Shown here piece after piece: positions 51,656-58,622 of a stretch of DNA of 64,000 nucleotides. The position numbers and the translations under genes were made by a program. The notes under the pieces are model-generated. The model searched no databases and was not told the DNA's origin. It was given only the letters and a program-made list of their open reading frames with translations. Position 1 is the stretch's first letter. Each line of letters opens with the position of its first letter. The stretch is from NCBI RefSeq assembly GCF_022227765.1, contig NZ_JAJMLZ010000010.1, positions 1-64,000 of the forward strand, read 5' to 3'. The stretch comes from Ectothiorhodospira shaposhnikovii (lineage in GTDB: Bacteria > Pseudomonadota > Gammaproteobacteria > Ectothiorhodospirales > Ectothiorhodospiraceae).

Positions 51656-54600
51656 TCACGTTTTCCCCTTGCCGCGTCCGGCATTTCGCTCCTCCCCCAT
51701 CACCAGCAAACCCGCATTGCCGCCGGTGGCCGTGGTATTCACCGTCAGTACCCGCTCGGTGGCGAAACGCAGCAGATAGTGGGGGCCGCCGGCCTTGAAA
51801 CCGGTCCCCGACAGCCCCTCGCCGCCGAAGGGCTGGCTGCCCACCACCGCCCCCACCATATCCCGATTGACGTAGGTATTCCCTACCCGCGCCTGACGGG
51901 CCAGCCGGTGGACAACGGCATCGATCCGGCTATGAATTCCCAGCGTCAGACCATAGCCGGTGGCATTGATCTGACGGATCAACCCGTCCAGTTCACCGGT
52001 ACGCCAGCGCAGCACATGCAGCATGGGACCAAACACCTCCCCCGGCAACTCATCCAGCCGCTCCAGCCGATACAGGCTCGGGATCATGAAACTGCCCCGC
52101 TCACAGCCGCCCGACAGACGGGCACGGTGAAGCAGCCGATCCTTGCGCCTCATCTCCTCGTCATGGGCCTGCAGAGCCGCCAGGGCCCGGTCGTCGATCA
52201 CCGGTCCCACATCGGTGGAGAGCCAGTGGGGATCTCCCACCACCAGGGTGTCCATGGCGCCCTTGAGCATCTCCAGCAGGGGTTCGGCCACCGTCTCCTG
52301 CACGCACAACACCCGCAGCGCCGAACAGCGCTGACCGGCACTGAAGAAAGCCGAACGCAGGATGTCCGTCACCACCTGCTCATGCAGGGCGGTGGCATCC
52401 ACCACCATGGCATTGATGCCGCCGGTTTCCGCGATCAGGGGGACGATGGGGCCATGCTCCCGGGCCGCCAGCCCCCGGTGAATCAGACGGGCGGTCTCGG
52501 TGGAGCCGGTGAAGGCCACCCCGGCGATGCGCGGATCGGCCACCAATCGGGGGCCGATCTCCTCTCCCCGACCGGGCAGACAGTGCAGCACGTTCACCGG
52601 CACGCCGGCCTGATGCATGAGTTGCGTGGCCCGCACCGCCACCAGGCTGGCCTGTTCCGCCGGCTTGGCGATCACCCCGTTACCCGCCGCCAGGGCGGCG
52701 GTCACCTGGCCGGTGAAGATGGCCAGGGGGAAATTCCAGGGGCTGATGCATAGAAACACCCCCCGGCCCCGCAGGGTAAGTTCATTGCGCTCCCCGGTGA
52801 CCCCGGGCAGGGACAGGGGCCGGATGAACCGTTCCCGGACCTGGGCGGCATAATAGCGGCAGAAATCCACCGCCTCGCGCACCTCGGCCTGGGCATCCCG
52901 CAGGGTCTTGCCCGCCTCTTCCACACACAGGACCATAAGCTCCGCCGTGTGCTGCTCCAGCAGATCGGCCACCCGGTCCAGGATCGCCGCCCGCTGGGCC
53001 GGCGGGCGTTCATCCCAGGCCGTCCAGGCCTGATGAGCGGCCGCCAGGGCCGTCTCCAGATCCTCGTCACCGGCCCAGGTGACGCGGCCGACTTCCCGCC
53101 CCCGATCGGAGGGCGCGTAGACCCCATGTCCATGGCCGGTCCTGAGCCGCCCGCCGCAGAGGGGGCCACCGTTCCAGGGGGCACGCGCCCCGATGCGGTT
53201 CATGTCCGCCGCCAGCTTCCGCAGGGTCTGGCGGTCGGCAAAGTCCAGGCCCCGGCTGTTGCGTCTGGAGGGGGCATAGAGGGCGCCGGGCAGGGGGATG
53301 CGTGGATGGCGCCAGGTACCGTAACCCTTGAGGGTGGTCACCGGATCGGTGATGAGCTGTTCCAGATGTTCCTCGTGCAGGCGATGAACAAAGGACGAGT
53401 TGGCGCCGTTTTCCAGCATGCGCCGCACCAGATAGGGCAGCAAGGTCTCGTGACTGCCCACCGGGGCATAGATCCGGCAATGGCGGCGACTCTGGCCGGA
53501 CCGTTCCACCAGTTGCCCGTAGAGCCCCTCCCCCATACCGTGGAGACGCTGGAATTCGTATTCCCTGTCGCCGGCCATCTCCATCACCGCCGCCACCGTC
53601 TGGGCATTGTGGGTGGCGAACTGGGGGTAGAGGTGGGGACTGTCCTGGAGCAGGCGGCGGGCACAGGCCAGATAGGACACGTCGGTGGCCGCCTTGCGGG
53701 TGAAGACCGGATAATCGTTCAATCCCTGCTGCTGGCTGTCCTTGATCTCCGTGTCCCAGTAGGCGCCTTTCACCAGTCGCACCATGACGGTACGACGATG
53801 CCGGGCGGCCTGCCGCTCCAGCCAGCCCAGCACGGCCCAGGCCCGTTTCTGATAGGCCTGCACGGCCATGCCCAGGCCATCCCAGCCGTTGAGGTCCGCA
53901 TCGGCGATCAGGGCCTCCATCACGTCCAGGGAGAGATCCAGGCGCCAGGATTCCTCGGCATCGATGCACAGGGAGATACCCTGATCCCGGGCCAGCCGGC
54001 ACAGCTCCAGGATACGGGGCAGAAGCCGGCATTGCAGACGGCTTTCCTGGCCGGGTTCGTAGCGGGCATCCAGGGCGGAGAGTTTCACCGAAATGCCCGG
54101 TCGTTCCCGCAATGGAGCGCGCAGGTCCACCGCCTCGCCGATGCGTTGAATGGCCTGCCGGTAGGCCTCGAAATAGCGCCGGGCATCCTCCTCGGTGCGG
54201 GCCGACTCCCCCAGCATGTCGTAGGAATGGCAATAGCCCTCCTGCTCCCGGGGACGTGCCCGTTTCAGGGCCTCGTCGATGGTGCGCCCCAGCACGAAGG
54301 CATCGCCCAGCATGGCCATGGCGCGGCGCACGGCGGAACGGACCAGGGGAGCACCGGCCCGGGCCAGCAGACGATGGACCGTTCCCCCCAGCCAGTGGCG
54401 GCGATCCTCGGTGTCGATGATGCGCTCGCTGATCCACAGTCCCCAGGTGGCGGCATTGACGAAAAAGGGCCGGTCCTTGCCCAGGTGGGCATCCCAGTGG
54501 GCGGCAGAGAGCTTGTCCTGGATCAGCTGGTCCGCGGTGGCCTTGTCCGGCACCCGCAGCAGGGCCTCGGCCAGACACATGAGGGCAATGCCCTCTTCCG

Positions 54601-54841
54601 AGGAAAGGTCGTATTCATGCAGCAGCGCCCCGATGCCGGACTGGTGTTCCTGGGCCTTGATCATGCCCCGCACCAGCCCCCGGGCCAGGAAACGCACGCG
54701 GGTCGCCGCCTCTTCCTCCTGGGAGGCATGGGACAGCAGGGCCTTGACCGCCTCCGCTTCATCCATGCGGCAGGCCAGCATGATGGACTCGCGATCCTGG
54801 ATGGACAGCGCGTCGAGGTCCGGGTACACGTATCGGCTCAT
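51656..54841 (-). CDS. putA: Bifunctional proline dehydrogenase/P5C dehydrogenase PutA
   Basis: A 1,061-residue enzyme that oxidises proline to glutamate. The proline dehydrogenase barrel covers about 80-480 (ISVKLSALDARYE, MVRLVKGAYWDTEIKDSQQQ and RRMLENGANSSFVHRLHEEH). The aldehyde dehydrogenase part covers about 560-1060 (VFLCISPWNFPLAIFTGQV, VAFTGSTETARLIH, LIAETGGINAMVVDATAL and the catalytic cysteine in SAGQRCSALRVLCVQE). There is no N-terminal ribbon-helix-helix domain, so it is not autoregulatory like E. coli PutA. ATG 54841 gives the normal N-terminus, and the frame upstream to 55090 lies in the divergent promoter. It is divergent from putP. Confidence 0.97.
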   Translation of the reverse strand: MSRYVYPDLDALSIQDRESIMLACRMDEAEAVKALLSHASQEEEAATRVRFLARGLVRGMIKAQEHQSGIGALLHEYDLSSEEGIALMCLAEALLRVPDKATADQLIQDKLSAAHWDAHLGKDRPFFVNAATWGLWISERIIDTEDRRHWLGGTVHRLLARAGAPLVRSAVRRAMAMLGDAFVLGRTIDEALKRARPREQEGYCHSYDMLGESARTEEDARRYFEAYRQAIQRIGEAVDLRAPLRERPGISVKLSALDARYEPGQESRLQCRLLPRILELCRLARDQGISLCIDAEESWRLDLSLDVMEALIADADLNGWDGLGMAVQAYQKRAWAVLGWLERQAARHRRTVMVRLVKGAYWDTEIKDSQQQGLNDYPVFTRKAATDVSYLACARRLLQDSPHLYPQFATHNAQTVAAVMEMAGDREYEFQRLHGMGEGLYGQLVERSGQSRRHCRIYAPVGSHETLLPYLVRRMLENGANSSFVHRLHEEHLEQLITDPVTTLKGYGTWRHPRIPLPGALYAPSRRNSRGLDFADRQTLRKLAADMNRIGARAPWNGGPLCGGRLRTGHGHGVYAPSDRGREVGRVTWAGDEDLETALAAAHQAWTAWDERPPAQRAAILDRVADLLEQHTAELMVLCVEEAGKTLRDAQAEVREAVDFCRYYAAQVRERFIRPLSLPGVTGERNELTLRGRGVFLCISPWNFPLAIFTGQVTAALAAGNGVIAKPAEQASLVAVRATQLMHQAGVPVNVLHCLPGRGEEIGPRLVADPRIAGVAFTGSTETARLIHRGLAAREHGPIVPLIAETGGINAMVVDATALHEQVVTDILRSAFFSAGQRCSALRVLCVQETVAEPLLEMLKGAMDTLVVGDPHWLSTDVGPVIDDRALAALQAHDEEMRRKDRLLHRARLSGGCERGSFMIPSLYRLERLDELPGEVFGPMLHVLRWRTGELDGLIRQINATGYGLTLGIHSRIDAVVHRLARQARVGNTYVNRDMVGAVVGSQPFGGEGLSGTGFKAGGPHYLLRFATERVLTVNTTATGGNAGLLVMGEERNAGRGKGKT

Positions 54842-54982
54842 GTTCTTGTTGTCCTGTGGCAAATGCACGCCATGTCGGCGGGGCGTCCGCGGCTGGCCCC
54901 GACGGGGTGTCCTTCTTAGAATAGCCGCTCGCATCGGGATCGTTCCACGATCCTGCCCTGTCCTTCTCAACGGGAGTCCGTG

Positions 54983-55096
54983 ATGCAAGAAACCCTGACC
55001 ACCGCCACCTGGTTCTGGCTGCTGGTGCCCATGCCCCTGCTGGTGTTGCTGTCGCTCGTCAGCCTGCTGCGCCACAGCCTGGGGAGGCACGGGTGA
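54983..55096 (+). CDS. 37-aa single-helix peptide coupled to PutP (putative symporter small accessory protein)
   Basis: A short gene with its own Shine-Dalgarno (GGGAG, seven bases before ATG 54983). The product MQETLTTATWFWLLVPMPLL continues with VLLSLVSLLRHSLGRHG: one membrane helix with a basic cytoplasmic end. Its stop overlaps the putP start (TGATG), which is a mark of translational coupling and stoichiometric co-production. Small proteins of this kind are annotated beside several sodium:solute symporters, so an accessory role for PutP is likely, but this is family knowledge and position only. The gene would be missed by a length cut-off. Confidence 0.75.
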   Translation: MQETLTTATWFWLLVPMPLLVLLSLVSLLRHSLGRHG

Positions 55097-56580
55097 TGAC
55101 CGGTAGCGTGGAAATCAACTTCGCCCTGCTGGCGACCCTCATCGTCTATCTGATCCTGATGATCCTGGTGGGCCTGCTGGCCTACCGGGTGACCAGCAAT
55201 CTGTCGGACTACATCCTGGGCGGACGACGGCTGGGCGCGGGCACGGCCGCCCTCTCGGCCGGGGCCTCGGACATGAGCGGCTGGCTGCTGCTGGGCCTGC
55301 CGGGAGCAGTCTACGCGGCTGGCATGAACCAGCTCTGGATCGCGGTCGGGCTGACCATCGGCGCCTATCTGAACTGGCAGTTCGTGGCCGAGCGCCTGCG
55401 GCGGTTCACCGCCGCCGCCCGGGACTCGATCACCATTCCGGCCTATTTCGAGAACCGTTTCCGGGACGAGACCTCGGCCCTGCGGGTGGTGTCGGCCCTG
55501 GTGATCCTGGTGTTCTTCACCTTCTACACCTCCGCCGGCCTGGTGGCCGCCGGCACCCTGTTCGAGGGGACATTCGGCATCGACTATGAGCTGGCCCTGG
55601 CCATCGGCGCCGCGGTGATCCTGGTCTATACCCTGCTGGGGGGCTTTCTGGCGGTGAGCTGGACCGACTTCATCCAGGGCATCCTGATGTTCGTGGCCCT
55701 GGTCCTGGTACCCGTCATCACCATCATGAACCTGGGCGGCTGGACCGAGACCAGCCAGATGGTGGCGCAGCTCAATCCCGGCGCCCTGGATGCCTTTCAC
55801 GATATCACCCTGTTCGGCATCATTTCCCTGATGGCCTGGGGCCTGGGTTACTTCGGGCAACCCCATGTACTGGCCCGGTTCATGGCCATTCGCAGTCCCG
55901 GCGACATTCCCCTGGCCCGCTTCATCGGCATCACCTGGATGGTGGTGGCCCTGTTCGGCGCCATGCTCACGGGCTTTGCCGGGATTGCCTATTTCGGCGA
56001 AGCGGGACTGGCGAACCCGGAGACGGTGTTCATCCTGCTGATTCAGGCCCTGTTCAATCCTTGGGTGGCCGGATGCCTGATCGCGGCGGTGCTGGCGGCC
56101 ATCATGAGCACCATCGACTCCCAGCTGCTGGTGTCCTCGTCGGCCCTGTCCGAGGACTTTTACAAGCGCTTCTTCCGCCCCGCTGCCTCGGATACGGAAT
56201 TGGTCTGGATCGGCCGGGGCACGGTGCTGGGCATCGGCGTGCTGGCCACGTTGCTGGCGCTGAATCCGGATGCCGCGGTGCTGGATCTGGTGTCCTATGC
56301 CTGGGCGGGCTTTGGCGCGGCCTTCGGGCCGGTCATCATCCTGTCGGTGTTCTGGCGCGGCATGAACCGCAACGGCGCCCTGGCGGGGATCGTCACCGGC
56401 GCGCTCACGGTACTGATCTGGGAACGTTACGAGGGCGGCCTGTTCGACATGTACGAGATCCTGCCGGGCTTCATCCTGGCCACCCTGGCCATCTTCCTGT
56501 TCAGTCGGGTGGGCAAGGGCCCGACCGAGGACATGAAACGGGAGTTCGACGCGGTGCAACGGGCGCAACGGGAAGGCTGA
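55096..56580 (+). CDS. putP: Sodium/proline symporter
   Basis: A 494-residue sodium:solute symporter with about 13 helices. Family motifs: SDYILGGRRLGAGTAALSAG and ASDMSGWLLLGLPGAVYAAG (cation and substrate site region), GLGYFGQPHVLARFMAIRSP, and AAVLAAIMSTIDSQLLVSSS followed by ALSEDFYKRFF. The start ATG 55096 overlaps the stop of the small upstream peptide. GGGGAGG at 55081-55087 is the ribosome binding site. With putA it forms a proline uptake and catabolism unit. Confidence 0.96.
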   Translation: MTGSVEINFALLATLIVYLILMILVGLLAYRVTSNLSDYILGGRRLGAGTAALSAGASDMSGWLLLGLPGAVYAAGMNQLWIAVGLTIGAYLNWQFVAERLRRFTAAARDSITIPAYFENRFRDETSALRVVSALVILVFFTFYTSAGLVAAGTLFEGTFGIDYELALAIGAAVILVYTLLGGFLAVSWTDFIQGILMFVALVLVPVITIMNLGGWTETSQMVAQLNPGALDAFHDITLFGIISLMAWGLGYFGQPHVLARFMAIRSPGDIPLARFIGITWMVVALFGAMLTGFAGIAYFGEAGLANPETVFILLIQALFNPWVAGCLIAAVLAAIMSTIDSQLLVSSSALSEDFYKRFFRPAASDTELVWIGRGTVLGIGVLATLLALNPDAAVLDLVSYAWAGFGAAFGPVIILSVFWRGMNRNGALAGIVTGALTVLIWERYEGGLFDMYEILPGFILATLAIFLFSRVGKGPTEDMKREFDAVQRAQREG

Positions 56581-56647: not shown

Positions 56648-58381
56648 TCACCCCAGCCAGCGCCGGGCCACCCTGGCGCCCTCCTCCATGTCCGTCACAT
56701 AGGTCAGGCGCCCCGCCTCCTTGCGTACCCCGGCCCGGCGCAGCTTGACGATCAGGCGGGCCTTCATGCCCACGAAGATGAGGGCGATCCCCTTCTGACG
56801 CAGATCGGTGATCAGGCTCTGCAAGGCCACCAGGGCGGTGCCGTCCATGCTGGGGACATCCCGCATGTCCAGCATGACCACCTTCACGCCGGGGTCCACC
56901 AGCCGCAGGGAAGACATGGCCTTCTCCGCGGCACCGAAGAACAGGGGACCGTTGACGTCATAAAGGGCCACCGCCGCCGGCAGTGAGCGGGTATCCGGAT
57001 GACGGTCCGTCTGCACCCGGTCGGAGTGGGTGATCAGGGACATGCGATGAATGAACAGGGCCGCCGCCAGCCCCATGCCCACGGCCACCGCCAGCACCAT
57101 GTCGAACAGCACCGTCAGGCCGAAGCAGATCAGCAGGATGGCCACATCGGGCCTGGGAGCGGAGCGGATCGTGCGGGCAAACAGGTGGGCCTCGCTCATG
57201 TTCCAGGCCACCACGAACAGCAGCGCGGCCAGGGCCGCCATGGGGACATGGCCCAGCACGCCGGCCAGGCCCACCACCGCGATCAGCACCACCAGGGCAT
57301 GGACCACGGCGGCAATGGGGGATCGGGCCCCGCTGCGGATGTTGGTGGCGGTCCGGGCGATGGCACCGGTGGCGGTGATGCCGCCGAAGAAGGGTGCCAC
57401 CACGTTGCCCAGGCCCTGCCCGATCAATTCCGAGTTGGGATCATGGCGGGTTCGGCTCAGCCCATCCGCGACCACGGCGCAGAGCAGGGATTCGATCGCG
57501 CCCAGCATGGCAATGGCAAAGGCCGGCCCCAGCAATGCCCGGATCAGATCGAAATTCAGCTGCAACGGTTGCCCGTCGGGACCGGGGAGATGCCACGGGA
57601 GGGCGAAGGCGGGGGGAATGGGCGGAATCCCCTGCCCCGACTCCCCCCGGTATTCCCAGGTGAAACGGGAGGCAATGGTATCCACGGCCCCACCGCCCAG
57701 CCAGTGATTGAGGGCCCATGTGGCCAGGGCCGCCGCCACCAGTGCCACCAGGGGTGCGGGCACGGGAACCTTGAGACGTCCCCAGAAGACGAGGATCAGC
57801 AGGGTGAAGATGCCCACCCCCAACTCCATCGGGTTGATGCTGGGGAAGGCGGACACGATGCTCCCCAGGTTGGCCAGATAGTGCTCTCCCAGATGATCCA
57901 CGGTCAGCCCCAGAAAATCCGGCAACTGCAGGGTGGCGATCACCACGGCGATGCCGGCGGTGAACCCCAGTACCACCGGATAGGGCACGAACTGGATCAG
58001 GGCACCCATGCGGGTCAACCCCAGGGCAATCAGGATCAGTCCGGCCATCACGGTGGCCACCAGCAAGCCGCCCAGACCGTACTGCTGCACCACCGGGATG
58101 AGGATCACCACGAAGGCCGCCGTGGGCCCGGAGACGTTGAAACGGGAGCCTCCGGTGAGGGCGATGATGGCCCCCGCCACGATGGCCGTGTACAGGCCAT
58201 GTTGGGGCGGCACCCCCACGGCGATGGCCAGCGCCATGGCCAGGGGCACCGCGACAATACCAATGGTCAGGCCGGCCATCACATCCTTGCGCAGGTCGGC
58301 CAGACCGTAGCCTTCCTTCCAGGCGGCCCGAAGCCCCATGAACAGACCGGGCATGCGGCCGGACCAGGGGGAATTGTGCAT
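56648..58381 (-). CDS. SulP-family anion transporter with STAS domain (DauA-like)
   Basis: A 577-residue inner-membrane transporter. It has the family block AVGVPPQHGLYTAIVAGAII, with about 12-14 helices to residue 430, and a C-terminal cytoplasmic STAS domain (about 440-555). Sequence order around PDFLGLTVDHLGEHYLANLG recalls E. coli DauA (YchM), a C4-dicarboxylate transporter, rather than the sulfate transporters, but substrate is not proven. ATG 58381 has GAGGAG about nine bases before it. It converges with putP. Confidence 0.88.
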   Translation of the reverse strand: MHNSPWSGRMPGLFMGLRAAWKEGYGLADLRKDVMAGLTIGIVAVPLAMALAIAVGVPPQHGLYTAIVAGAIIALTGGSRFNVSGPTAAFVVILIPVVQQYGLGGLLVATVMAGLILIALGLTRMGALIQFVPYPVVLGFTAGIAVVIATLQLPDFLGLTVDHLGEHYLANLGSIVSAFPSINPMELGVGIFTLLILVFWGRLKVPVPAPLVALVAAALATWALNHWLGGGAVDTIASRFTWEYRGESGQGIPPIPPAFALPWHLPGPDGQPLQLNFDLIRALLGPAFAIAMLGAIESLLCAVVADGLSRTRHDPNSELIGQGLGNVVAPFFGGITATGAIARTATNIRSGARSPIAAVVHALVVLIAVVGLAGVLGHVPMAALAALLFVVAWNMSEAHLFARTIRSAPRPDVAILLICFGLTVLFDMVLAVAVGMGLAAALFIHRMSLITHSDRVQTDRHPDTRSLPAAVALYDVNGPLFFGAAEKAMSSLRLVDPGVKVVMLDMRDVPSMDGTALVALQSLITDLRQKGIALIFVGMKARLIVKLRRAGVRKEAGRLTYVTDMEEGARVARRWLG

Positions 58382-58622
58382 GAATGACACTCCTCAAAGG
58401 TGCTGACGGTTCGACGACGGCAAGGGGATGGCAGACAGCTGCCCGGGGCAGACCACGGCCTGTGCCTGATGCAAGGTGACGGGAGTCGTGGCAGATATTG
58501 CCAAACGGAATGATGGTATCACTTCTGACACAAATCAGGGGATTCACGCGTCACGGTCTTGCCCTGGCGAGCCGTAAACGGTGAACATCCGGAACTGGGC
58601 ATCCAGAATCATGGAGCAAGGC

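Follow-up and report, generated by a model that had tools for sequence, protein, structure and literature searches.

A conserved 37-amino-acid membrane peptide encoded directly before putP in Ectothiorhodospira is probably a second part of a sodium-driven proline importer

The window (the whole 64,000-nucleotide stretch of DNA analyzed here) carries a 37-amino-acid (37-aa) open reading frame directly before putP, the gene for a sodium/proline symporter of the sodium/solute symporter (SSS) family. Judged from its conservation, the product is probably an overlooked second part of a sodium-driven proline importer. With a rough probability of 0.6, we read it as an accessory subunit of one PutP lineage, formed by a single N-out/C-in helix, comparable to MAP17 with SGLT2 and needed for stable insertion, assembly, or full transport activity.

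The features of the locus are as follows.

51656 to 54841, minus strand: putA, bifunctional proline dehydrogenase/glutamate-semialdehyde dehydrogenase (NF008869/PRK11904, 1505 bits against a cutoff of 747)
54972 to 54976, plus strand: Shine-Dalgarno (SD)-like GGGAG of the peptide gene, read in the sequence, 6 nt 5′ of the ATG
54983 to 55096, plus strand: gene for the 37-aa single-helix membrane peptide, MQETLTTATWFWLLVPMPLLVLLSLVSLLRHSLGRHG, with ATG at 54983 and stop codon TGA at 55094 to 55096
55081 to 55087, plus strand: SD-like GGGGAGG of putP, within the peptide gene, 8 nt 5′ of the putP ATG
55094 to 55098, plus strand: TGATG stop/start overlap of the peptide gene and putP, the putP ATG starting at 55096
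55096 to 56580, plus strand: putP, sodium/proline symporter, 494 aa (Pfam SSF; TIGR02121, 709.8 bits, above the curated cutoff of 515.5)

The putA gene lies upstream of the peptide-putP pair, in divergent orientation. A preliminary description of this DNA had given the 37-aa frame its own ribosome binding site and a TGATG overlap with putP, and both are present in the sequence. A GTG in the same frame at 54980 could also serve as the start, but alignment with relatives favors the ATG. On the other side of putP, the gene converging on it (56648 to 58390, minus strand) resembles, by eye, a SulP-type anion transporter whose C-terminal part is STAS-like.

A total of 84,980 species genomes were scanned with PutP only, and the best 80 of 459 loci were kept. 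The genome to which the window belongs is 3.34 Mb in size, and among these best 80 loci the closest named PutPs are those of Ectothiorhodospira shaposhnikovii and E. lacustris (99% identity). A peptide profile seeded with three Ectothiorhodospira copies was then run on all open reading frames of at least 20 codons on both strands. Already in the first round, each of the 80 PutP-chosen loci contained a match (E ≤ 0.01). The last round yielded 81 matches, one per locus on the sense strand and directly 5′ of putP, plus one overlapping extra match in locus L082. The preliminary description had named the absence of a conserved short frame before putP in relatives as a finding that would speak against the peptide; the frame was clearly there in every locus. 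Within the genus, 8 of 10 genomes, including that of the window, carry a PutP of at least 82% identity, and all 8 have the peptide at the same place.

Only 5 of the 80 loci are from Ectothiorhodospira. Other carriers are Halorhodospira abdelmalekii, marine Pseudomonas, Aestuariirhabdus, Roseospira, Marivibrio, and many Bacillaceae, together with single metagenome-assembled contigs labeled Desulfuromonadales and Puniceicoccaceae (taxonomy as given by the contig labels). Starts placed by script were ATG in 57 loci, GTG in 19, and TTG in 4, and an SD-like tetramer preceded the peptide gene in 77 of the 80, by a loose test run without a control. From this conservation the 37-aa frame is a real gene, far beyond chance, with a predicted translation product.

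Linkage to putP was also examined in genome collections searched with the peptide itself. Among 369 gammaproteobacterial genomes, a profile built from the genus only gave six matches at E < 1e-5; two are from Ectothiorhodospira, the window included, and all six are directly before putP. Weaker matches (E > 1e-4) lay away from PutP in the loci inspected, a minority of them. PutP was found in 61 of 340 gammaproteobacterial genomes (E ≤ 1e-120), and the 30 best-scoring of these PutP loci comprise five with the peptide (including the window and one genus mate) and two with a divergent look-alike. In the latter (L176 and L177, positions 1384 to 1476), a hydrophobic peptide (MSLDLLTSLFLWAPM...) lies 18 nt before putP and matches the profile weakly (E of 0.02 to 0.04), so the family may extend beyond the profile's reach. 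Among 250 Bacilli genomes the peptide was found in 17 (E ≤ 1e-4), directly before putP in all 17, one of which is the center genome and was chosen through PutP. PutP is present in 131 of these 250 genomes, all 17 carriers among them, and none of the 119 genomes without PutP has the peptide. The peptide is rare in Alphaproteobacteria: 2 of 190 genomes matched, one being the Roseospira center genome, recruited by PutP similarity. The other match, a stretch within a larger open reading frame at a locus without PutP, was rejected as chance. A search of a plasmid collection with one Bacillus-type peptide gave no match.

Some genomes hold two PutPs. In three of them (G402, G447, and G190) one PutP has the peptide and the second has no match nearby. 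In Halobacillus hunanensis (G407, locus L242) a single contig region holds both PutP genes, and a separate peptide copy directly precedes each of them.

Presence of the peptide depends on the PutP lineage. On a quick tree of 120 PutP rows (66 carry the peptide, 53 lack it, and 1 is doubtful), in which the peptide-free PutPs are a nonrandom sample made up of the best-scoring ones from two surveys and their relatives, presence requires 4 changes, against a mean of 39.7 for shuffled labels. We read this as an old association with a few losses, the root being unfixed and gains being possible. One peptide-free group (L009, L013, L014, L161, and L163) is nested among carriers and was taken as a loss. 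Relatives from the window's own family with PutPs of about 62% identity (L009 to L013) lack the peptide, so that presence tracks the PutP lineage and not the organism. Constant linkage to one transporter lineage is a feature expected of an accessory subunit, and the peptide shows it.

Linkage of this kind is not universal. Most PutPs surveyed are without the peptide, and in E. coli K-12 nothing similar to it lies between putA and putP. The annotated 8-codon frame ymdG found there (L241, record positions 1079120 to 1079146) is too short to be compared with the peptide. The earlier suggestion that many PutP annotations miss a subunit would accordingly hold for part of PutP only (66 PutPs with and 53 without the peptide in the tree; 17 of 131 in Bacilli) and does not extend to E. 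coli K-12. Purification and reconstitution of E. coli PutP are the subject of a title in the reference list of PMC7918813. Given this and the many PutPs without the peptide, the PutP fold as such needs no such helix.

How the peptide might act can be outlined. In the window, the TGATG overlap would couple translation of the two genes and hold both products near a fixed ratio. From the positive-inside rule and the positively charged C terminus we infer a single helix that inserts N-out/C-in. It would then pack on the outside of PutP and stabilize or activate the transporter. The small accessory subunit proposed in the preliminary description is the best-supported reading; binding to PutP and a requirement for transport are predictions.

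The main rival to an accessory subunit is a modulator of PutP activity or turnover: the peptide would bind PutP to inhibit it, alter its response to Na+ or osmotic conditions, or steer its turnover by FtsH, in the manner of MgtS, MgtR, and MgtU. Small membrane proteins commonly act in this way (PMC10710835, excerpt), and the existence of many PutPs without the peptide is compatible with a modulator. The coupled genes and the absence of any gap across the 80 loci of one PutP range, however, are more easily explained by a permanent partner than by a regulator tied to particular conditions, and we consider regulation unlikely.

The peptide sequence itself bears on two further alternatives. Its features were read from an alignment of 56 rows, from which close copies and four loci were omitted (L082, with an unclear peptide start; L086, with a frame shortened to 24 aa; and L087 and L121, with long tails). 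The peptides are about 32 to 40 aa long and have an acidic or neutral N terminus, a helix with the pattern T-W-x-W-L-(L)-(V/I)-P-M, and a charged C terminus, which is strongly basic in Ectothiorhodospira. Across the 56 aligned peptides T9 and P16 never vary, and W10, W12, L13, M17, and L23 hardly do. Across a 24-codon core, pN/pS was 0.21 in the peptide frame and 0.95 and 3.1 in the two shifted frames, calculated from 251 pairs with 75 to 97% DNA identity; the pairs share history and are therefore not independent. They came from 78 of the 80 loci, the core being not fully placeable in the other two. The contrast between frames indicates that the amino acid sequence is what is kept: the peptide is under purifying selection.

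Such selection weighs against a leader frame whose translation merely opens or couples the putP start, or acts as an attenuator, with an irrelevant product. The TGATG overlap in the window genome and the location of the putP SD-like sequence within the peptide frame are what such a leader would look like. Against it stand the selection at the amino acid level and the conservation of a hydrophobic helix across phyla. The spacing to putP also varies from an overlap to about 70 nt (in L068 the stop codon ends at 2401 and the first putP ATG is at 2474), a distance at which coupling would be weak, and no RNA family reached threshold in positions 54800 to 55200. With the protein sequence selected and the spacing variable, a leader frame is very improbable. 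A chance frame, of which this GC-rich region has many short ones, is refuted by conservation and has a negligible probability, since linkage to putP, the tree pattern, and selection contradict it as well and Bacillaceae, whose DNA is quite different, carry the same peptide.

Some residues of PutP track the presence of the peptide. The best of them is Q95 of the window PutP (the Q of NWQF; codon 55378 to 55380). Of the PutPs with the peptide, 61 of 66 have this Gln, as does 1 of the 53 without it, and the nested peptide-free clade has lost it. We treat it as a lead, since well-supported branches provide only three independent pairs. At a second position, D341 (codon 56116 to 56118, in the helix motif STxDSQLL), 64 of the 66 carriers have Asp; the 53 peptide-free PutPs have Asp in 18 cases and Ser in 33. 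Because Asp also occurs in those 18 peptide-free PutPs, D341 marks an older split. By alignment it would be close to a sodium site found in SiaT and SGLT1, where it might affect how ions are coupled. Covariation between the peptide and PutP was uninformative: invariant columns dominated the normalized mutual information calculated from 108 distinct pairs, and the effective number of sequences was 39.

Structure prediction made use of locus L068, in which the peptide and putP share a reading frame and can be read through; a natural spacer of some 24 residues separates the peptide from the first putP ATG. With 34 paired read-through rows as input, AlphaFold2 gave pLDDT values of 40 to 50 for the peptide, 54 to 93 for blocks of PutP, and 44, 54, and 38 for blocks of the spacer (residues 31 to 60). 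When 41 PutP-only rows were added to the same 34, the values for the peptide were 81 to 93 and those for the spacer were still poor (55, 38, and 30); in this 75-row input L015 was entered twice and the rows were realigned, so that peptide columns may differ slightly. The rise is as would be expected if PutP places the helix, pLDDT being a local measure from which no interface can be read. In a fold search, residues from about 59 on had the SSS fold, and the peptide stretch was barely covered by the alignments. The PutP part of L068 matched the solved SSS transporters SiaT (5nva, Z of 35.8) and SGLT2 (of 8hez, Z of 31.9).

A search of the window genome with PutP as the query, which may miss more distant SSS genes, found four SSS genes, each with a small membrane protein gene as its neighbor. 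Besides the peptide-putP pair, and outside the window, these include a DUF485 gene directly before an ActP-type SSS gene (DUF485 by Pfam only) and a DUF4212/TIGR03647 "sodium/substrate symporter small subunit" gene directly before a VC_2705-type symporter gene (L225/L227 for both). The remaining SSS gene (G000:C5:14407-15660) reaches no NCBIfam SSS cutoff. Directly following it is a gene for a 39-aa one-helix protein of no known family (L226, G000:C5:14128-14244), also outside the window. This 39-aa protein was found in 26 of 40 genomes searched, its own included, and each of the 12 loci read has it next to the same SSS gene. It appears to be another symporter partner that has so far gone undescribed.

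The window peptide matches no Pfam or NCBIfam family. For the 56 aligned peptides there was no convincing match in either library; the best E values were 0.011 (NCBIfam) and 0.033 (Pfam), each family being hit by 1 to 5 of the 56. TIGR03647/DUF4212 was matched neither by the window peptide nor by any of the 56 at E ≤ 1, and both models detect their true member in the same genome. PF04341 (DUF485) likewise did not match the peptide, the true DUF485 protein of this genome scoring 107.5 bits. By these profile tests the peptide belongs to neither DUF4212 nor DUF485. A peptide profile searched against PDB sequences matched no solved chain at E ≤ 1. Among the best-ranked open-license PMC papers, which are what the literature search covered, none deals with a small partner of PutP, and the words "subunit," "accessory," and "small membrane" are absent from the main text of the SSS review PMC7918813. 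Small partners of SSS transporters are a known kind; the peptide family and its partnership with PutP appear to be new.

If a large PutP lineage does need a second subunit, heterologous expression and structural studies of such PutPs may not work, or may give misleading results, when this unannotated peptide is left out. PutP, the textbook example of a sodium/proline symporter made of one polypeptide, serves as a bacterial model for the SLC5 family. The peptide would, if the accessory-subunit reading is true, provide a minimal system in which genetics can address why transporters of the SLC5 type have single-helix partners, as SGLT2 has MAP17. A curated model of its family would also fill a gap in both Pfam and NCBIfam.

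Among known systems, two bacterial families have the same arrangement as the peptide. TIGR03647/PF13937 (DUF4212) proteins are small membrane proteins encoded directly before an SSS transporter, in this genome too, and the peptide shares their placement directly upstream of the transporter gene, which holds for all 80 loci and takes the form of a TGATG overlap in the window. The DUF4212 member is longer (120 aa in this genome), its partner belongs to another SSS branch, and the PutP peptides do not match the family. PF04341 (DUF485) proteins are likewise small membrane proteins encoded directly before an SSS symporter, this genome included; DUF485 before ActP is presumably the YjcH type. The DUF485 protein has about 102 aa and an acetate-type symporter as its partner, and the PutP peptides fall outside that family.

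MetS of the Corynebacterium MetPS system is a short peptide encoded together with a sodium-coupled methionine/alanine importer and required for it; its partner is an NSS-family transporter. Library scans with the PutP peptides returned no MetS-type family among their matches. Kinship with MetS and MAP17 was compared through these Pfam and NCBIfam scans, insofar as the libraries contain their profiles. The targets of MgtS, MgtR, and AcrZ are encoded elsewhere, or these proteins act under stress; the PutP peptide gene, unlike theirs, overlaps the gene of its own transporter. MgtS, MgtR, and AcrZ are proteins of about 30 to 55 aa that act on membrane transporters (PMC10710835, excerpt).

The closest functional likeness is MAP17 (PDZK1IP1) with human SGLT2, a small partner within the same SSS/SLC5 superfamily. 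MAP17 is a single helix, N-out/C-in, and is longer than the peptide. PutP, with its 13-helix topology, should lack a counterpart of the TM13 that MAP17 contacts in SGLT. MAP17 is eukaryotic and is not encoded in an operon with its partner; its sequence relation to the peptide was examined by Pfam scan only. It is essential for SGLT2 activity, interacts with TM13 of SGLT2, and is thought to have a structural role (PMC10203128, excerpt). A bolder reading, to which we give somewhat less than even odds, takes one PutP lineage, found in several phyla, for a transporter of two components in which a single-helix subunit of 32 to 40 aa is obligatory, a bacterial counterpart of MAP17-SGLT2; more widely, bacterial SSS transporters may as a rule have small helical partners.
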